From Alistipes sp. (GTDB taxonomy: Bacteria > Bacteroidota > Bacteroidia > Bacteroidales > Rikenellaceae), in contig JAIEHQ010000053.1 of assembly GCA_029065825.1 (NCBI GenBank), positions 1 through 35,503 on the forward strand: 35,503 nucleotides of DNA. Direction: 5' to 3'. Below are positions 2,399 through 35,503 of this stretch, one piece after another. Each line of letters opens with the position of its first letter. Position 1 is the stretch's first letter. Both the position numbers and the translations under genes were made by a program. Below the pieces are notes generated by a model. That model worked only from the letters and a program-made list of their open reading frames with translations, did no database searches and had not been told where the DNA came from.

Positions 2399-3187
2399 AT
2401 GAAACATTATTTATTGTACGCCTTTCTGACCGGTGCGTTTCTGCTGTCCGGCTGCGAAAAAGAAGAGCGTGAGGGAAATTACAAGGGTTTCGCTTCTGAT
2501 TACAGCATCGTCCATTATGTGGATGGGGATCTTGAGGTCCGTCAGGACAGCTACTATCCCGGACAGCTGGTGCAGGATGCGCCCGTTCCTGTCGCGTTGT
2601 TTGTCTCCTGGACCGTTACGAAGGATTACCTGGCACCGGAACTCTCCGATCCGGAGCGTTCGGACCATCCCTGTGAGCCGGCCAATACGGAGGAGTTCCG
2701 TGCGATCGCGGCCCGCAACGGCGATGTGCCTTCTTTCGAGAAATGCCATTGGAGCGGAGCGCCCATTTATATGATCTATGATGCAGGCAACGCGCTGTCC
2801 GACAACTTTACCTCGCTGCATCTTACCTGCGACACGGCATGGGACGAGTCGCATCCTGCGGGCGCGCCGCTGGACGATCTGGTGACGGTGGAGTTCGAGT
2901 CCTATGCGGATAAAATCGCCGAGCCGAACAACTGGCACGACTTTCGGCGGCGCTATCGTTTGAGCGAACTTCCCTCCGATGCCATGCGGATGGTGGCTCT
3001 CTATTCGCATAGCGACAATTATCCGTACGACGAACGTCCGTGCCTGTGTGTGATTTTCGACGAGGCCGTCGATTTCCCGGGTTCGCGCAAGCTGACTCTG
3101 ACGCTGGCTGCGGCCGACGGGCGCACGTGGAGCGCTTCGTGCGGCGTGCGGGCCGACGGTACCAAGCAGGTCATTACCTATCCTTGA
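2399..3187 (+). CDS. Hypothetical lipoprotein
   Basis: MKHYLLYAFLTGAFLLSGCEKEE lipobox; own promoter and terminator; no family recognised. Confidence 0.8.
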   Translation: MKHYLLYAFLTGAFLLSGCEKEEREGNYKGFASDYSIVHYVDGDLEVRQDSYYPGQLVQDAPVPVALFVSWTVTKDYLAPELSDPERSDHPCEPANTEEFRAIAARNGDVPSFEKCHWSGAPIYMIYDAGNALSDNFTSLHLTCDTAWDESHPAGAPLDDLVTVEFESYADKIAEPNNWHDFRRRYRLSELPSDAMRMVALYSHSDNYPYDERPCLCVIFDEAVDFPGSRKLTLTLAAADGRTWSASCGVRADGTKQVITYP

Positions 3188-3208
3188 TCCCCTGTCAGGG
3201 ATAGTGAG

Positions 3209-5110: not shown

Positions 5111-6139
5111 TCATTCCGCGCCGTGTCCGGCGGTCGAGAGTAGGCCGCAGGCCGCCTGTATGTCCTCCCCGCGCGAGGCGCGGATGGTGGTGTGGATCCC
5201 TTTGGCGGTCAGTGCGTCGCGGAAGGCGGTCATCGCCCGGTCGTCGGGCGAGAAGTAGGGCGAGCCGGGGATCTTGTGAAAGCGGATCAGGTTGATGCGG
5301 CACTTCACGCCGTCGAGCAGCCGGCACAGCTCGCGTATGTGGCGTGGCGAGTCGTTGCGGCCGCTGAGGACGATGTATTCGAACGAGACGCGCCGCTGGT
5401 GGCTGAAGTCGTGGCGGCGCAGGATGTCGATGACCGAGCGGATCGGCCATGCCCGTTCGACGGGCATGATCTCGGCCCGCTCCTCGGCGAAGGGGTTGTG
5501 GAGGCTGACGGCCAGGTGGACTCCTGTGGCGCGCAGGAAGCGGTCGAGCTGCGGCGCTACGCCCGAGGTCGAGACCGTGATGCGGGTGGGCGACCAGCCG
5601 AAGCCCCAGTCGGAGGTAAGTATTTCGAGCGTTTCGAGCACGTTGTCGGTGTTGTCCAGCGGCTCGCCCATTCCCATGAAGACCAGGTTGGTCAGCCGTT
5701 CGCGCTCGGGCAGGGCGCCGATCTGGTTGAGGATCTCGTGGGGCGAGAGCGAATGCCGGAGCCCCTGGCGGCCCGTCGCGCAGAAGCGGCAGCCCATGCG
5801 GCAGCCCGCCTGCGAGGAGACGCAGAGCGTGGCCCGCTCGCCGTCGGGGATGTAGGCCGATTCGACGTAGGCCCCCTCGAGGGTGCGGTAGAGGTATTTT
5901 TTCGTGCCGTCCTGGGAGATGCTCTCCTTTTCGGGGGGCGTGGTTCCTGCGTGGAACTCGCGGGCGAGCAGGTCGCGGTGGCGCAGCGAGAGGTTGCTCA
6001 TCGCGGCGATGTCGGGCACGTGGCGGTCGTAGAGCCAGCGGGCGATCTGCCGGGCTGCGAAACGGGGCATCTCCAGCCGGTTGCAGAGCGCCTCCAGCCG
6101 GGCGAGCGTCATGCCGTACAGGGGAGTGGATTGGGTCAT
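5111..6139 (-). CDS. rlmN: 23S rRNA (adenine2503-C2)-methyltransferase RlmN
   Basis: Radical SAM CRMGCRFC; GMGEPLDN; ITVSTSGVAP; C-terminal RASRGEDIQAACGLL. Start MTQSTPLYGM chosen over ORF start 6196. Confidence 0.95.
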   Translation of the reverse strand: MTQSTPLYGMTLARLEALCNRLEMPRFAARQIARWLYDRHVPDIAAMSNLSLRHRDLLAREFHAGTTPPEKESISQDGTKKYLYRTLEGAYVESAYIPDGERATLCVSSQAGCRMGCRFCATGRQGLRHSLSPHEILNQIGALPERERLTNLVFMGMGEPLDNTDNVLETLEILTSDWGFGWSPTRITVSTSGVAPQLDRFLRATGVHLAVSLHNPFAEERAEIMPVERAWPIRSVIDILRRHDFSHQRRVSFEYIVLSGRNDSPRHIRELCRLLDGVKCRINLIRFHKIPGSPYFSPDDRAMTAFRDALTAKGIHTTIRASRGEDIQAACGLLSTAGHGAE

Positions 6140-6193
6140 GCGGATGTGGTTCTTTCGTGCGGGACGCGGGCTGCCGCCTCTGTCGCCGCCGGG

Positions 6194-6201
6194 CAAAATT
6201 A
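6194..6201 (-). promoter_or_regulatory. -7 box TAATTTTG for rlmN
   Basis: caaaatta on + strand reads TAATTTTG on -, about 55 nt upstream of rlmN ATG. Confidence 0.45.
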
Positions 6202-6254
6202 GTTAAAAAACGAAGATTTTCGGTGCGGATGGGGCGATTTTGAATTTTTATGTC

Positions 6255-6262: not shown

Positions 6263-6333
6263 TCGGTAGATAGCGTGCCTTGCGGTACGATACGGATGCG
6301 ATTTGCAGTTATTAATCGAAGAAAACATATTTT

Positions 6334-7014
6334 ATGGAAATCAAGAAAACACCGAAAGCCGACGGAGAGAACAAGCGCGGTCTGTTTCTCGAAATCGGGT
6401 TGATCGTCGCTCTGGCTCTGGTGATCCTGGCTTTCTCCATTACGCCCAAGGAGCACCGCATCGAGAAAATCGACGTGGGCTACATGCCTGTCGAGACGGA
6501 GATCATGGAGATCACGCGTCAGGACCAGAAGCCGCCCGAGGCTCCCAAGAAGGTCGATATGAACGTGCTGAGCGACATGCTGGATATCGTGACCAACGAC
6601 ACCAAGATCGAGACCGAGATCTCGTTCGAGGAGTTCAACGAGGACGAGGCCATCGAGATCGCACCCGTTCAGGAGGAGGAGATCATCGAGGAGGAGATCT
6701 TCGTGACGGCCGAGAAGATGCCGAGCTTCATGGGCGGCGATCTGAGCGCTTTCAACAAATGGGTGCAGGCACGTGTGAAGTATCCCGCCATCGCGCAGGA
6801 GAACGGCATCGCCGGCAAGGTGTTCGTGAAGTTCGTGGTCGAGAAGGACGGCACGCTGAGCAAGATCGAGGTGCTGCGCTCGCCCGACAAGTCGCTTTCG
6901 GACGAGGTGATCCGCATTCTGAAGACTTCGCCCAAGTGGGAGCCCGCCATGCAGCGCAACCGGCCGGTGCGTCTGACCTTTACCATGCCGGTCAATTTCC
7001 AGATCATGGACTAA
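6334..7014 (+). CDS. TonB-family energy transducer protein
   Basis: Single N-terminal TM helix; acidic linker; C-terminal VKYPAIAQENGIAGKVFVKFVVEKDGTLSKIEVLRSPD...WEPAMQRNRPVRLTFTMPVNF. Confidence 0.93.
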   Translation: MEIKKTPKADGENKRGLFLEIGLIVALALVILAFSITPKEHRIEKIDVGYMPVETEIMEITRQDQKPPEAPKKVDMNVLSDMLDIVTNDTKIETEISFEEFNEDEAIEIAPVQEEEIIEEEIFVTAEKMPSFMGGDLSAFNKWVQARVKYPAIAQENGIAGKVFVKFVVEKDGTLSKIEVLRSPDKSLSDEVIRILKTSPKWEPAMQRNRPVRLTFTMPVNFQIMD

Positions 7015-7040
7015 CCTCCGCTCCGGCGGATTCGATAATC

Positions 7041-7074
7041 AAGGGCATCTTCGCGAAGAGGGTGCCCTTGTTTT
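7041..7074 (+). terminator. Terminator after the tonB-family gene
   Basis: aagggca...tgccctt stem with interior pairing tctt/aaga, followed by gtttt. Confidence 0.7.
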
Positions 7075-7114
7075 CAATCAGATGGGATCGCTGTTTGGAT
7101 TTTATAATTGAAAA

Positions 7115-7522
7115 ATGGATATGAAAAAGACTTTGATATTTACTTTGGGAATAATAACCGGTGTTTTTCTGACATTTGTAGGACTCTTTATTGTAGGGAT
7201 TAATAAATCCAATAATAATGGAATTACTATGTTCGAAGAGCCTGGGGAGGTCATTATGGCAGATCAATTTAAGATTTTTCAGGTGTTAGAACCGCACGTT
7301 GCTCTTGCTAATGCAGAAGATAGTAGTTTATCTTTATCTTCTATATCTTTTTTTAATGGCCCTATCGTATTATTTGTAAATCATACTGGAAAATATTATT
7401 ACGATGATGAGATCATTAAAGTCCCTCAGGGAAAATGTGTAAGACAAATAGGTATATATAATTATATGAACAGAGCAGGTGGGGTTAAGACTGTTCCTGT
7501 TGTTTGTATGATGGATATTTAA
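7115..7522 (+). CDS. Hypothetical membrane-anchored protein, AT-rich gene
   Basis: MKKTLIFTLGIITGVFLTFVGLFIVGI N-terminal TM/signal anchor; base composition clearly lower GC than flanking genes. Confidence 0.7.
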   Translation: MDMKKTLIFTLGIITGVFLTFVGLFIVGINKSNNNGITMFEEPGEVIMADQFKIFQVLEPHVALANAEDSSLSLSSISFFNGPIVLFVNHTGKYYYDDEIIKVPQGKCVRQIGIYNYMNRAGGVKTVPVVCMMDI

Positions 7523-9463: not shown

Positions 9464-11269
9464 ATGCTGCGTCGTTTGTCGTTCCCTGCGGCCGTCTTTG
9501 CCGTGACCGTCGGCTGGATGGCCTTGCAGAAACCGCTGTTTCTGCTCTTCTACCATGCGCGCGCGGCTTCGGCCTCGGCGGCCGACTGGTGGGCCGTCGT
9601 GCGGCACGGGCTGTCGCTCGACTGTACCGTCGCGGGATACGTCGCCGCTGTGCCGGCACTCGCCGTGCTGGCATCGTGGTGGATGCCCGATTCGTGGTGC
9701 GGTGCCGTGCGGCGGGCGGTGCGCTGCTGGCTGGCGCTCGCGGCTGTCGCGACGGCCGCGATCTTCGCGGTCGATCTGGGGCTGTACGGCTATTGGGGCT
9801 TCCGGCTCGACGGGTCGGTGCTCGTCTATCTTTCGGATCCGAAGGAGGCGCTGGCCAGCGTCACGTGGGGCGAGGCCCTGCGGCAGCTGGCGGTCTTCGC
9901 GCTCTACGGCGGCGGCATGGCCGCCACGCTTCTGCCGCTCGTGTCTCTTCTCGGGTGCGGAGGCGGCGCACGCCCGGCGCGTGTGCGTGCGTGCGGTTCG
10001 CTGTTGTCGCTGCTGCTCTGCGGCGTGCTGTTCCTGGCCATCCGGGGCGGCGTGACGGTAGCCGTGGCCAACGTCAGCAAGGTCTATTTCAGCAAGGACA
10101 TGTTCTTGAACCACGCCGCCGTCAATCCCGTCTTCTCGTTCCTCTCGTCGGCGGGCGATCGGCGGGAGTATGCCGCGGCCTATCCCTTCTTCGGGGAGGA
10201 GCGGCGGCGGGAGCTTTTCGATGACGTGCGGGGCAACCGTCCCGGGGCCGATGACGGCACCCTTCCCCTGCTGCGCACGCAGCGCCCGAATGTGGTGCTG
10301 GTGCTGCTCGAGAGTTTCGGCCGCACGATCATGGACGACACCGTGGGCGGCCGGCCCGTGATGCCCAACATGCAGCGGCTCAAGAGTGAGGGCGTGTGGT
10401 TCGAGAATTTCTTCGCCAACTCCTACCGTACCGACCGGGGCGAGGTGGCGGTGCTCTGCGGCTTTCCGGCGCAGACCACCATGTCGCTCATGAAGCTGCC
10501 CCGCAAGAACGCCACCCTGCCGTCGCTGGCCCGCTCGCTCGGGCGCGAGGGCTACCGCTCGCTCTTCGTCTATGGCGGCGACCTCAATTTTACCAACCAG
10601 GCTTCGTTCATGTATGCGACCGGTTGGGAGCGGCTGCTCTGGCAGAAGCAGATGCGGCTCGATGCCCCGACCTCGAAGTGGGGCTATGCCGACGACGTGG
10701 TGGCCGACCTTTTCGCCGACGAGGTGGAGGCGCTGAGCCGTGCGGGAGAGCCGTTTCTGGCGGGCTGGCTCACGCTTTCGAGCCACGAGCCGTTCGACGT
10801 TCCTTACGATGCGTTCGACGACCGGCTGCTCAACGCGATGGCCTTTACCGACGCGCAGGTCGGGCGGCTGATCGACCGGCTCAAGGCTTCGCCCGCGTGG
10901 GACGACCTGCTGGTGGTGCTCGTCGCCGACCACGCCTATCCCTATCCCGAGGGACTGAGCTACAACGAGCCGCTGCGCCACCGCATCCCGATGCTCTGGC
11001 TGGGCGGCGCGGTGGCCGGCCCGGCGGAGGTGGAGACCTACGCCTCGCAGATCGACTTATGCGCCACGCTGCTGGCGCAGCTCGGCATTTCGCACGAGGA
11101 GTTCGACTACAGCAAGAACATTTTCGGCAGCGAGCCTCCCCGGCGGTTCGGCTACTGGTGCTTCAGCGACGGCTTCGGCTTCATCGACGAGGCGGGCGAG
11201 ACGGTCTATGACCACACCGCCGGGCGGGTGGTCCGTTCGGACGGCGCGGGCTGCGAGGAGCGGCTGTAG
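9464..11269 (+). CDS. LTA synthase-like membrane sulfatase/phosphoglycerol transferase, apparently truncated by an in-frame TAG
   Basis: N-terminal TM segments; PNVVLVLLESFGRTIMDD; MPNMQRLKSEGVWFENFFANSYRTDRGEVAVLCGFP; VVLVADHAYPYP. Reading frame resumes after TAG 11267-11269 as RGKALLQTTYEDIGRR then TAG at 11318-11320. Confidence 0.9.
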   Translation: MLRRLSFPAAVFAVTVGWMALQKPLFLLFYHARAASASAADWWAVVRHGLSLDCTVAGYVAAVPALAVLASWWMPDSWCGAVRRAVRCWLALAAVATAAIFAVDLGLYGYWGFRLDGSVLVYLSDPKEALASVTWGEALRQLAVFALYGGGMAATLLPLVSLLGCGGGARPARVRACGSLLSLLLCGVLFLAIRGGVTVAVANVSKVYFSKDMFLNHAAVNPVFSFLSSAGDRREYAAAYPFFGEERRRELFDDVRGNRPGADDGTLPLLRTQRPNVVLVLLESFGRTIMDDTVGGRPVMPNMQRLKSEGVWFENFFANSYRTDRGEVAVLCGFPAQTTMSLMKLPRKNATLPSLARSLGREGYRSLFVYGGDLNFTNQASFMYATGWERLLWQKQMRLDAPTSKWGYADDVVADLFADEVEALSRAGEPFLAGWLTLSSHEPFDVPYDAFDDRLLNAMAFTDAQVGRLIDRLKASPAWDDLLVVLVADHAYPYPEGLSYNEPLRHRIPMLWLGGAVAGPAEVETYASQIDLCATLLAQLGISHEEFDYSKNIFGSEPPRRFGYWCFSDGFGFIDEAGETVYDHTAGRVVRSDGAGCEERL

Positions 11270-11445
11270 CGAGGCAAGGCGCTGCTGCAAACCACCTACG
11301 AGGACATCGGCCGCCGGTAGCTTTGCGGGCGGCGGCCGGAAGCTGCGGTGCGTGCCGGAAGGGTGCGCAGGGGGCGGGATGCCCTGTTCGGCGGGCCGGA
11401 TCGAATATATCGGCCGCGCGGCTTCCCCTTGTCGGGCGAAATTAC

Positions 11446-11453
11446 TACCTTTG
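11446..11453 (+). promoter_or_regulatory. -7 box TACCTTTG, 5 nt before the pcrA start codon
   Basis: tacctttg-cccgc-ATG. Confidence 0.55.
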
Positions 11454-11458
11454 CCCGC

Positions 11459-13891
11459 ATGGAATCTCAGATATTGCAAGGACTCAACCCCGTCCAGCGC
11501 GAAGCGGTGGTCAATTACGACGCGCCGTCGCTCATCATCGCGGGTGCGGGGTCGGGCAAGACGCGGGTGCTGACCTCGCGCATCGCCTACATGATCGAAC
11601 AGGGGGTTCCGCCGGAGCATATCCTGGCGCTGACCTTTACCAATAAAGCGGCCGAGCAGATGCGCGGGCGCATCGCGCAGATGGTGCCCGGAGGACGCAG
11701 CCGCTTCATCCGGATGGGAACCTTCCACTCGGTTTTCGCGCGCATCCTGCGCGAGAATGCCGAGCGCATCGGCTATCCGGCGACCTACACCATCTACGAA
11801 CCGGCCGACTGCAAGAACTTGCTCAAGACGATCGTCAAGGAGCTGCATCTGGCCGAGGAGAAGTACAAGCCCGCGCTGCTCGCCTCGCGCATCTCCTACG
11901 CCAAGAACTGCCTGGTCACGCCGGGCGCCTACCTGGCCAACGCCAGCTGCGGGGCGGAGGACCGGCAGCGGCAGATTCCCGAATTCGGCAACATCTACAA
12001 CATCTACTGCGCCCGCTGCAAGCAGAACGGGGCGATGGACTTCGACGACCTGCTGCTGCAGACCAATATCCTGCTGCGCGACTGCCCCGACATCACGGCC
12101 CGCTATCAGGAGCTGTTCCGCTATATTCTGGTCGATGAGTATCAGGATACCAACTACGCCCAGTACGCCATCATCCGCCGGCTGTCGCAGCACCATGCCA
12201 AGGTGTGCGTGGTGGGCGACGACGCGCAGTCGATCTACTCGTTTCGGGGGGCGAAGATCGAGAACATACTCTCGTTCAAGAAAGATTTTCCCTCGGCGAT
12301 GGTCTTCAAGCTGGAGCAGAACTACCGTTCGACCCGCACGATCGTCGATGCGGCCAACTCGGTGATCGCCCGCAACTCGAAACGGATGGAGAAGAAGTGC
12401 TTCTCCGAGGGCGAGGTGGGCGACAGGATCCGGGTGCTGCGCGCCTATACCGACCGCGAGGAGGCCGAGCGGGTGGTTGCGGACCTGCGCGACAAGGTGC
12501 GGGCTGCGGGCGAGGAGTGGGCCGAGGCGGCCATCCTCTACCGCACCAACAACCAGTCGCAGGCGCTCGAAGAGGCGTTGCGCCGCAAGGGGGTTCCCTA
12601 CCGCATCTACAAGGGCAATTCGTTCTACGATCGCAAGGAGATCCGCGACATGCTGGCCTACATTCGTCTGGTGGTCAATCCCCGCGACGACGAGGCGTTC
12701 CGCCGCATCGTCAATTATCCGGCGCGCGGCATCGGCGATGCGACCGTCGAGCGCATCGCGCAGCTGGCCCGCGAGACGGGCCGTTCGATGTGGGAGGCGG
12801 TGGATGCGCTGGTGGCCGAGCCGGCGGCCGATTCGGTGCAGCGGGCCATCGTGCGCAAGGTCTCCGAGTTCGTGGCGATGATCCGCGCTCTGTCGCAGGC
12901 CCGGGCGGAGAAGGGGCTTTACGAGCTGGGGCTCGAGATCGCTACCCGTTCCGGCGTGCTCGGAGTCTATCGGCAGGAGAACACCCCCGAAGCGACCTCG
13001 GCGGTGGAGAATATCGAGGAGCTGCTCAACACCATGCAGCTCTTCAACGAGCAGCGCGAGGCCGAGATCCGGGCCGGCGAGCGCGGCGAGGAGGAGCGGG
13101 CCACCGTCGAGGAGTGGCTGCAGCAGGCGATGCTGATGACCGACATGGACAAGGAGCAGGACGATCCGGCCGACCGCAACAAGGTGACGCTGATGACGGT
13201 TCATTCGGCCAAGGGATTGGAGTACAAGTTCGTCTATATCGTCGGAATGGAGGAGAACCTCTTCCCCTCGCAGCGGGCGGCCGAGTCGCCCGACGGTCTG
13301 GAGGAGGAGCGGCGGCTCTTTTACGTGGCGCTCACGCGGGCCAAGGTCTCCGCGACGCTCTCCTATGCCGAGACCCGTTTCAAGTGGGGCAACATGGAGT
13401 TCTCGCGCCCGAGCTGCTTCCTGCGCGAGATCGATCCCTGCTATCTGGATGCCGAGCCGCTCGACGACGAGCACGAAGTGCTCCGCAAACCTGCCGGGCA
13501 GCGGAACGCCTCGCCGCTCGACGAGCTGCGCCGCCGCTTCGACTACCGTTATGCACAGAAATCGGCCTCGGGCGCTTCGCGGGGCAGTTCCCCCGCCAGC
13601 CGGCCCTCCGCGGCGCATGGGGCGCAGCCCGCGGCGACCGCCCCGGTCCGTCCGACGGCGGGCATGCGGAGCATGGGGGTGCGTCCGGGCGACGCGACCT
13701 TGCAGCAGGGTGCCGCCCCCGCCGCGAACTGCGGCTATGCGGTGGGCGACCGGGTGTCGCACCTGAAGTTCGGCGCGGGGGTCATCCTCCGCATCGAGAC
13801 GGCATCGGGCGATCACAAGCTGGTGGTCGAGTTCGCCGACTACGGCGAGAAGACTCTGCTGGCGAAGTTCGCCAAACTGACTCGGCTGTAG
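11459..13891 (+). CDS. pcrA: UvrD/PcrA-type ATP-dependent DNA helicase
   Basis: LNPVQREAVVNYDAPSLIIAGAGSGKTRVLTSRIAYM; LVDEYQDTNYAQY; VVGDDAQSIYSFRGA; LEQNYRST; TVHSAKGLEYKFVYIVGMEENLFPS; C-terminal VGDRVSHLKFGAGVI. Start trimmed from 11348. Confidence 0.95.
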   Translation: MESQILQGLNPVQREAVVNYDAPSLIIAGAGSGKTRVLTSRIAYMIEQGVPPEHILALTFTNKAAEQMRGRIAQMVPGGRSRFIRMGTFHSVFARILRENAERIGYPATYTIYEPADCKNLLKTIVKELHLAEEKYKPALLASRISYAKNCLVTPGAYLANASCGAEDRQRQIPEFGNIYNIYCARCKQNGAMDFDDLLLQTNILLRDCPDITARYQELFRYILVDEYQDTNYAQYAIIRRLSQHHAKVCVVGDDAQSIYSFRGAKIENILSFKKDFPSAMVFKLEQNYRSTRTIVDAANSVIARNSKRMEKKCFSEGEVGDRIRVLRAYTDREEAERVVADLRDKVRAAGEEWAEAAILYRTNNQSQALEEALRRKGVPYRIYKGNSFYDRKEIRDMLAYIRLVVNPRDDEAFRRIVNYPARGIGDATVERIAQLARETGRSMWEAVDALVAEPAADSVQRAIVRKVSEFVAMIRALSQARAEKGLYELGLEIATRSGVLGVYRQENTPEATSAVENIEELLNTMQLFNEQREAEIRAGERGEEERATVEEWLQQAMLMTDMDKEQDDPADRNKVTLMTVHSAKGLEYKFVYIVGMEENLFPSQRAAESPDGLEEERRLFYVALTRAKVSATLSYAETRFKWGNMEFSRPSCFLREIDPCYLDAEPLDDEHEVLRKPAGQRNASPLDELRRRFDYRYAQKSASGASRGSSPASRPSAAHGAQPAATAPVRPTAGMRSMGVRPGDATLQQGAAPAANCGYAVGDRVSHLKFGAGVILRIETASGDHKLVVEFADYGEKTLLAKFAKLTRL

Positions 13892-14038
13892 CTCCGGGTG
13901 CGGTTTGCTCCGGACTTCTCCGCGAGCGGTCCGCTCTGTGAATGGGCGGAGCCGGATGCGCGGGAAATAGGGCGGTTCGAAGCGGGTTCTGCGGTTCGGA
14001 CCGCTGCATCGATTATCAGGACAACAAAATATTACGAT

Positions 14039-15163
14039 ATGTATCGAATTATCCTTTCGGGCGGAGGTACGGGCGGCCACATCTATCCGGCCGTGGCCGT
14101 GGCCGAAGCGTTGCGTCGCCGGCTGGGCGACGAGGTAGAGATCCTTTTCGTCGGTGCCGAGGGCAAGATGGAGATGGAGAAAGTGCCGGCTCTGGGCTAT
14201 GAGATCGTGGGGCTGCCCGTCGCCGGGTTGCAGCGCCGGCTCGACTGGCGCAATCTGCTGGTGCCCTTCAAGGCGCTCCGCAGCCTGCGGCTGGCGCGGC
14301 GGACGATCCGCGAGTTCGGGGCCGACGCGGTGGCCGGTTTCGGCGGTTATGCGAGCGGGCCGGTGCTGCGGGCCGCGCAGCGGATGGGAATCCCGACGCT
14401 GATCCAGGAGCAGAACTCCTATGCCGGTCTGACCAACAAGCTGCTGGCGCGGCGGGCGCGCACCATCTGCGTCGCCTACGAGGGGATGGAGCGCTTCTTC
14501 CCGCAGGAGAAGATCGTGATGACGGGCAATCCGCTGCGGGGCCGCTTCTCGCGCGAGGGGACCGACCGGGGCGAGGCGCTGGCCCACTTCGGCTTCGAGC
14601 CGGGGGTGCCGACGGTGCTGCTGGTGGGCGGTTCGCTCGGCACGCGGACGCTCAACGAGGTAATGAAGGAGTGGATTCCCCGGCAGGGCGGAACGGCTCC
14701 CGTGCAGGTCATCTGGCAGACGGGCAAATATTACCGGGCGGAGATGCGCGCCTTTCTGGAGGCCCATCCCACCGCCCGCATCTGGCAGGGTGCCTTCATC
14801 GACCGGATGGACTATGCCTACGCGGCGGCCGATCTGGTGGTCTCGCGCAGCGGTGCCTGCACTGTTTCGGAACTGTGCCTGGCGGCGAAGCCGACGCTGT
14901 TCGTTCCCTCGCCCAATGTGGCGGAGGACCACCAGACCAAGAACGCCCGGGCGCTTTCCGACCGGGGTGCTGCGCTGCTGGTGCCCGATGCGGAGGCGGT
15001 CGGCCGCGTGATGGACGAGGCGGTCGCCCTGGTGCGGGATCCGGAGCGGCTCGCGGAGCTGAGCCGACGCATCGGGGAGCTGGCCATCTCCGACTCTGCG
15101 GAACGGATCGTCGGCGAGATTCTCCGCCTGCTCGGGGAGAAGGGCCGGCCGGTGCGGGAATAG
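14039..15163 (+). CDS. murG: UDP-N-acetylglucosamine--undecaprenyl-PP-MurNAc-pentapeptide GlcNAc transferase
   Basis: MYRIILSGGGTGGHIYPAVAVAEAL; GLQRRLDWRN; GFGGYASGPVL; QEQNSYAGLTNKLLA; SRSGACTVSELCL. Confidence 0.95.
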   Translation: MYRIILSGGGTGGHIYPAVAVAEALRRRLGDEVEILFVGAEGKMEMEKVPALGYEIVGLPVAGLQRRLDWRNLLVPFKALRSLRLARRTIREFGADAVAGFGGYASGPVLRAAQRMGIPTLIQEQNSYAGLTNKLLARRARTICVAYEGMERFFPQEKIVMTGNPLRGRFSREGTDRGEALAHFGFEPGVPTVLLVGGSLGTRTLNEVMKEWIPRQGGTAPVQVIWQTGKYYRAEMRAFLEAHPTARIWQGAFIDRMDYAYAAADLVVSRSGACTVSELCLAAKPTLFVPSPNVAEDHQTKNARALSDRGAALLVPDAEAVGRVMDEAVALVRDPERLAELSRRIGELAISDSAERIVGEILRLLGEKGRPVRE

Positions 15164-15247
15164 CCGGCCGGGCGGCGGCTTCCGGAGAGGTTTCCGGTGC
15201 GTGCGGCGGCGAAAAGCGGCGGGAACGGGTGCGGGTTTGCCTCCGGA

Positions 15248-15278
15248 TTTGATATTTGCGGATAAATTAGTATATTTG
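15248..15278 (+). promoter_or_regulatory. Bacteroidota-type promoter TTTG-N19-TATATTTG for nrnA
   Basis: TTTG 15248-15251, TATATTTG 15271-15278, ATG at 15284. Confidence 0.8.
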
Positions 15279-15283
15279 CATCT

Positions 15284-16315
15284 ATGACAATCAAAGAGGA
15301 AGATATAGAGCGGCTGCGGCAGCTGCTGGAGGAACCCGCACGCAAGATCGTGATCGTGGCGCATGTCAATCCCGACGGCGATGCGGTCGGTTCGTCGATC
15401 GCCTGGCGCGATGCGCTGCAGGGGATGGGCCACCGGGTAACCTGCGTGGTCCCCAACAAATACCCCTACTTTCTGGACTGGATGTCCGATATCGGGAGCG
15501 TGGTCATCTTCAAGAACGACGAGGCGGGCATCGCCCGCCGGGCGGTGGAGGAGGCCGACCTGATCTTCTGCCTCGACTTCAACGCCATTTCGCGCCTGGA
15601 GGGGCTGAGCGAGCTGATCGAGTCCAATACGACGGCCCGCCGCGTGCTGATCGACCACCACCTGGCGCCCGGCCCCGGCTTCGACCTGATGTTCTCCCAT
15701 CCCGACTCGTCGAGCACCTCGTTCCTGGTCTATTCGATCATCGAGCGGATGCTGGGTGTGAAGGCCATCACGCCGCGGATGGCCGAAAGCATGTATGTGG
15801 GCATGATGACCGACACGGGCAACTTCTCCTTCTCGTTCCTCACGCCGGCGCTCTACCGGGCGGTGGCCGTGCTGGCCGAGACGGGAATCGACATTCCGGC
15901 CATCCACAACAACGTCTATAACGCCTTTACCGAAGGGCGCGCGCGGCTGTTCGGCTATGCGATAAACCGCAAGATGGAGGTTATGCACGACGGTACGGTG
16001 GCCTACATGTCGCTGCTCGAGAGCGAGATGCGCCGCTTCCAGTTCCAGCAGGGCGACAGCGAGGGGTTCGTCAATTATGCGCTGACGATCAAGAAGATGA
16101 AGATGTCGGCCATATTCATCGCCCACCGCAAGTTCATCCGCGTGTCGCTGCGCTCGCGGGGCGATGTCGATATGAACCTCTTCGCCCGCAAATATTTCAA
16201 CGGCGGCGGCCACCGCAATGCCGCGGGCGGCAAGTCGTTCGTCTCGATGGAGGAGACGATCGCCCACTTCCGCCGCTCGGTCGAGGAGTTCGCCGCCGAG
16301 GGTCATTTGGGTTGA
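15284..16315 (+). CDS. nrnA: DHH-family phosphoesterase, NrnA-like oligoribonuclease/pAp phosphatase
   Basis: IVAHVNPDGDAVGSS; LIDHHLAPG; GMMTDTGNFSFS; C-terminal FNGGGHRNAAGG. Confidence 0.93.
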   Translation: MTIKEEDIERLRQLLEEPARKIVIVAHVNPDGDAVGSSIAWRDALQGMGHRVTCVVPNKYPYFLDWMSDIGSVVIFKNDEAGIARRAVEEADLIFCLDFNAISRLEGLSELIESNTTARRVLIDHHLAPGPGFDLMFSHPDSSSTSFLVYSIIERMLGVKAITPRMAESMYVGMMTDTGNFSFSFLTPALYRAVAVLAETGIDIPAIHNNVYNAFTEGRARLFGYAINRKMEVMHDGTVAYMSLLESEMRRFQFQQGDSEGFVNYALTIKKMKMSAIFIAHRKFIRVSLRSRGDVDMNLFARKYFNGGGHRNAAGGKSFVSMEETIAHFRRSVEEFAAEGHLG

Positions 16316-16325
16316 TGTGTCGTCT

Positions 16326-17213
16326 ATGGACGATTTCCGGCTCAAAGTATTCATCGCGGCGGCGAAGACGCTCAGCTTTACCCGCTGCGCCGAGCAGCTC
16401 TACATTTCGCAGCCGGCCGTGAGCAAACACGTCGGGGAGCTGGAGGCGCGCTACAAGGTGCAGCTGTTCGAGCGGCGGGGCAGCCGGCTGGCGCTGACCG
16501 AGGCGGGGGCGGCGATGCTGCGCCATGCCGAGCGTATCGCCGACGACTACCGCCGCCTGCGCTATGAGATGGATCTTTTCGCCGACCGGCTGGGCGGCGA
16601 ATTGCGCATCGGGGCCAGCACGACCATCGCCCAGTACGTATTGCCCCGCATGCTGGCCCGCTTCACGAGCCGCTTTCCCGAGGTAAGGGTGTCGCTCATC
16701 TCCGGAAACAGCGGGCAGGTCGAGGAGGCGCTCGTGCGCCACGATGCCGACCTGGGGCTTGTCGAGAGCGCCACCCGGCGCCCAGGATTCCATTACGAAC
16801 CTTTCATGCCCGACGAGCTGGTGCTCGTCGCCTCCTCGCGCGGCCGTTACGGCCGGTGCGAGCGGATCACGCTCGACGAGTTGCAGCAGGCACCGCTGGT
16901 GCTTCGCGAGAACGGGTCGGGAACGCTGGAGGTGGTGGCCAGATACTTGGCGGCGGCCGGGATCCGGATCTCGTCGCTGCGGGTAATCATGCGCCTGGGC
17001 AGCACCGAGAGCATCAAGGCTTTCGTGCGCAGCAGCGATGCGCTGGCGATCGTCTCGGTCGCCTCGGTGGTCGATGAACTGCGCAGCGGGGAGCTGCGCA
17101 TCGTCGATATGGAGGGGTGCGCGATCCGCCGCGACTTCTCGTTCGTATGGCCCGAAGGGCGGGGCGATGCCCTCGCCTCGCGTTTCGTCGGGTTCGTGCG
17201 CAGTTTCGAGTAA
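16326..17213 (+). CDS. LysR-family transcriptional regulator
   Basis: N-terminal wHTH DDFRLKVFIAAAKTLSFTRCAEQLYISQPAVSKHVGELEARYKVQLFERRGSRLALTEAG; LysR substrate domain. Confidence 0.95.
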   Translation: MDDFRLKVFIAAAKTLSFTRCAEQLYISQPAVSKHVGELEARYKVQLFERRGSRLALTEAGAAMLRHAERIADDYRRLRYEMDLFADRLGGELRIGASTTIAQYVLPRMLARFTSRFPEVRVSLISGNSGQVEEALVRHDADLGLVESATRRPGFHYEPFMPDELVLVASSRGRYGRCERITLDELQQAPLVLRENGSGTLEVVARYLAAAGIRISSLRVIMRLGSTESIKAFVRSSDALAIVSVASVVDELRSGELRIVDMEGCAIRRDFSFVWPEGRGDALASRFVGFVRSFE

Positions 17214-35017: not shown

Positions 35018-35503
35018 ATGGCAGACAATTCGATACTTATCCGACTCGACGGCCTGAAACTCAAATACGAGGAGATCGGCCAGAAACTGACCGATCCCGA
35101 AGTGATCGCCGACGTGAAGCAGTTCGTGCAGCTCAACAAGGAGTACAAGGAGCTGGAACCGATCATCGCCTCGTCGGAGCGCTACCGCACCGCCATCGCC
35201 AACCTGGCCGAGGCCAAGGACGTGCTGGCCAACGACAAGGACGAGGAGATGCGCGAGATGGCCCGCGAGGAGATCGCCGCGCTCGAACCGGCGATCGAGG
35301 GGCTGGAGGAGGAGATCAAGCTGCTGCTCATCCCCAAGGATCCGCAGGATGCGAAGAACGCCATCGTCGAGATTCGCGGCGGTACGGGCGGCGACGAGGC
35401 GGCCCTCTTCGCCGGCGACCTGATGCGCATGTACACCAAATACATCGAGACGAAGGGGTGGCGCTACGAAGTGACCTCGTTCTCCGAAGGCACGGCCGGC
35501 GGA
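35018..35503 (+). CDS. prfA: Peptide chain release factor 1, 5' part (runs off window)
   Basis: [23 protein letters not shown]...[61 protein letters not shown]; the visible part does not include the anticodon-mimic motif. Confidence 0.9.

Follow-up and report, generated by a model that had tools for sequence, protein, structure and literature searches.

A premature in-frame TAG, probably a recent nonsense substitution, in an LtaS/OpgB-like sulfatase gene of an Alistipes draft genome

In-frame nonsense codons in bacterial genes have been examined at the population level by Belinky et al. (2021; PMC7918605), who argue for readthrough of some of these stops in bacteria. The enzymes closest to the one affected here are LtaS, LtaP and OpgB (MdoB), phosphoglycerol transferases of the alkaline phosphatase superfamily (PDB 3lxq, 4uop, 4uor, 2w5q) with which it shares a sulfatase domain, N-terminal membrane helices and the fold. 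A literature search on LtaS-type enzymes of Bacteroidota found no paper. The gene lies on contig JAIEHQ010000053.1 of a draft, Alistipes-like metagenome assembly (GCA_029065825.1; 1.6 Mb, 200 contigs, 86.7% complete), and the window referred to below is the whole stretch of 35,503 nucleotides that was analysed.

Table 1. Positions of the features discussed, numbered from the first base of the window
Feature	Position	Strand	Remarks
LtaS/OpgB-like membrane sulfatase-fold gene to first stop	9464..11266	+	601 aa (stop codon included: 9464-11269)
Premature TAG	11267..11269	+	sister genome L003 has GAG (Glu602)
16 in-frame sense codons RGKALLQTTYEDIGRR, encoding the conserved C-terminal helix beyond the stop	11270..11317	+	
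Natural, ancestral stop TAG	11318..11320	+	common to sister genome L003
UvrD/PcrA-type helicase gene, downstream	11459..13891	+	same frame as sulfatase
prfA (release factor 1), 5' part	35018..35503	+	cut by contig end, continues on contig C109

The interrupted frame and its protein family

Translation of 9464-11320, starting from the ATG at 9464, gives a sequence that runs through ...GAGCEERL to the first TAG, continues as RGKALLQTTYEDIGRR and ends at a second TAG. The original prediction of an in-frame TAG followed by 16 coding-like codons was correct in both its coordinates and its letters. Because the stop codon itself replaces a glutamate (GAG in the sister genome), 17 residues are removed and not 16. 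The locus is single-copy, and a search of the genome for a second, intact copy found none, the sole other sulfatase (on contig C192) being a distant paralog.

The description of the protein as LtaS-like holds at the level of fold and family. The Pfam Sulfatase domain (PF00884) is matched at residues 275-542 with 127.5 bits against a cut-off of 25, and the best fold matches, which are also the nearest solved structures, are 3lxq (Vibrio), LtaP and LtaS. However, the protein falls far under the NCBIfam equivalog cut-offs for LtaS proper (45.8 versus 970 bits) and for phosphoglycerol transferase I, OpgB (89.3 versus 572 and 58.1 versus 574 bits), and its likeness to these enzymes is therefore one of fold and family. 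N-terminal helices extend to about residue 194 and are followed by the catalytic domain; from their length and hydrophobicity, the long helices over residues 2-194 are predicted to be membrane helices. Residues E283, T323, D489 and H490, which by correspondence with LtaS we take to be putative active-site residues, are invariant and all lie upstream of the premature stop.

Conservation of the tail and origin of the stop

Orthologs were found at E below 1e-130 in 113 of 180 genomes of the genus. Aligned past the position of the stop, as the original prediction had proposed, the match reaches the tail (residue 610 or beyond) in 108 of 109 ortholog loci, and no ortholog ending at ...EERL was seen among those examined. 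Among the 91 distinct tail sequences Gln609 never varies, and G604 is found in 83 of them, L608 in 77 and Y612 in 71; the conserved residues as a whole are G604, K/R605, L608, Q609, T611, Y612, D614 and I615, so that the tail is indeed as conserved as it had looked. The KGKAYLQ..YDD type of ending that had been named for Bacteroidota LTA-synthase-family proteins was also found, since Bacteroides and Prevotella relatives have tails of the KAYLQ.LYDD type (L069, L072, L076-L081). Judged from the ortholog alignments and from the sister genome, the 16 codons behind the stop are genuine coding sequence and not chance, and the tail is a family feature of the orthologs.

An AlphaFold model of the sister protein L003 (51 sequences; mean pLDDT 93.7) places an ordered C-terminal helix at residues 597-617, with pLDDT of about 94-97. 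The stop removes residues 602-618 and thus most of this helix, leaving the truncated product without 16 of the 21 helix residues, the invariant glutamine among them. The putative catalytic residues all precede the stop, as they would if this were a naturally shorter C-terminus, equally functional and reached by adaptive or neutral truncation. However, nearly every ortholog has the tail, Gln609 is invariant in it, and none of the orthologs seen ends at the codon 602 point, so that we consider such an explanation the most improbable of all. The 601-aa gene model is better regarded as a truncation than as a natural protein end, and the C-terminal helix with its invariant glutamine offers a testable feature of this Bacteroidales enzyme family.

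The nearest genome with the gene is that of an uncultured Alistipes (CAMWGZ010000001.1; locus L003 in genome G061, which is apparently identical to G188). It shares about 97% DNA identity with the window across 6.8 kb, with the same gene order of HflX, UPRTase, sulfatase and UvrD. Its sulfatase gene has GAG at codon 602, runs uninterrupted for 618 aa and stops at the same second TAG, and its tail codons specify the same 16 residues with one synonymous difference. Since a more distant ortholog, L004 (69% identity), also has Glu at this position (SERLEWGKALLQTTYEDIDRR), Glu is likely the ancestral state and TAG the derived one. A single-base G-to-T transversion (GAG to TAG) is sufficient to explain the stop; the one-base origin that had been proposed thus stands, although the codons guessed for it (CAG, AAG or TGG) differ from the GAG of the relative.

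Over the whole sulfatase gene there are 29 substitutions and no gaps relative to L003: 21 synonymous, 7 missense and the nonsense change, with dN/dS of about 0.11. This comparison shows a gene under constraint, and the ratio together with the lack of indels rules out gene-wide decay.

Among the neighbouring genes with Pfam support that could be compared with the sister genome, no other internal stop was seen. Apparent stops in the GT28 gene were discounted, as they are located before the likely true start, and so was an apparent stop in the 6303-7124 frame, which is without Pfam support; the 5192-6202 frame, likewise without Pfam support, has one stop in the sister genome. Synteny is broken at window 2404-3207, where 0.8 kb of different sequence stands in place of about 2.2 kb in the sister genome (G061:C1:12497-14660), the latter holding one ORF of 458 aa and another of 246 aa. 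A 1765-aa ORF on the minus strand (window 11057-16354) is antisense to the UvrD, GT28 and DHH genes; such antisense ORFs were set aside as genes and taken to be mechanical frames of GC-rich DNA.

In-frame stops occur in three of the 113 genus orthologs, those of the source genome, G028 (C30, locus L070; an internal TAG following ...YFAV and preceding QTLSS...) and G091 (C35, locus L152; an internal TAA near residue 280), and in none of the other 110. In another ortholog, L151 in G164, the reading frame shifts near residue 559. All of these lesions are at different positions, and the stop at codon 602 is carried by one assembly only, being shared by no other genome searched. Ordinary mutation together with assembly error could produce disrupted copies at this level of a few percent.

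The TAG could itself be such an error, whether of base calling, consensus or strain mixture, with the organism having GAG. G-to-T changes are a common oxidative sequencing artefact. The single draft assembly, the intact and constrained remainder of the gene and the lack of any other lesion in the Pfam-supported neighbours comparable with the sister genome would all fit this explanation, which we regard as possible, though rather unlikely. However, the site is outside any homopolymer, the assembly contains no second allele, and the TAG is one of 29 gapless substitutions, which fits ordinary divergence. On the sequence alone a nonsense mutation, which would have to be a young one, is moderately favoured over a sequencing error.

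Decoding of the UAG codon

If the UAG were read or leaked through, by a suppressor tRNA, recoding or weak termination, full-length protein would still be made, and a peptide spanning the stop would contain, for example, ALLQTTYEDIGR. The intact tail, with its one synonymous change, and the argument of Belinky et al. are in favour of this possibility; a young mutation, however, would equally leave the tail intact. The genome has coding capacity for release factor 1: the remainder of prfA is found at G000:C109:9532-10194, and the two contigs can be taken as adjacent given a 76-base exact overlap between their ends and the split gene. The original prediction had suggested looking for an amber suppressor tRNA, and none with a CUA anticodon was present among 30 tRNA genes in this 86.7% complete genome (29 read by ARAGORN, the thirtieth, at a contig edge, judged by eye to be tRNA-Pro); in a genome of this completeness the tRNA result is suggestive rather than decisive by itself. 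TAG is also the stop of five other window genes (UvrD, GT28, PdxA, SpoU methylase and glutamine synthetase). Moreover, the natural stop of the sulfatase is itself TAG and no in-frame stop occurs in window 11321-11458, up to the UvrD ATG, so that general decoding of UAG would fuse the sulfatase to UvrD. RNA folding after the premature stop is no better than that of shuffled sequences (z = 0.14).

Recoding of UAG is rejected on the release factor, tRNA and stop-usage evidence, and amber readthrough, one of three options originally put forward, is left without support from these or from RNA folding. With the stop absent from all other genomes searched, we hold any form of UAG decoding to be very improbable; partial readthrough in this lineage, which would yield two enzyme forms, with and without the C-terminal helix, has a slighter chance still. 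Where a draft genome has a gene for release factor 1 and uses UAG to terminate other genes, a lone in-frame UAG is no ground for proposing recoding.

The preferred explanation and known systems

These results suggest, as the probable explanation, that codon 602 recently changed from GAG to TAG by a nonsense substitution in this Alistipes lineage. Release factor 1 would terminate translation at UAG602, 17 residues early, and the product would retain its membrane region and every putative catalytic residue. Without most of the ordered C-terminal helix, the truncated enzyme has probably lost stability or some of its activity, a functional loss that we infer. That living cells of this population truly carry the TAG is likewise inferred, from one draft assembly. 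By itself the premature stop would be of little import, an ordinary event.

Like the cases of Belinky et al. (PMC7918605), this one has a stop made by a single substitution, an otherwise intact frame and no shared ancestry with the stops of relatives; unlike them, it is known from one assembly only. With UAG-recoded codes and amber suppression it shares an in-frame UAG behind which the coding sequence is conserved. It differs from them in that the Alistipes genome encodes release factor 1, no CUA tRNA was found among its 30 tRNA genes, and UAG serves there as an ordinary stop.
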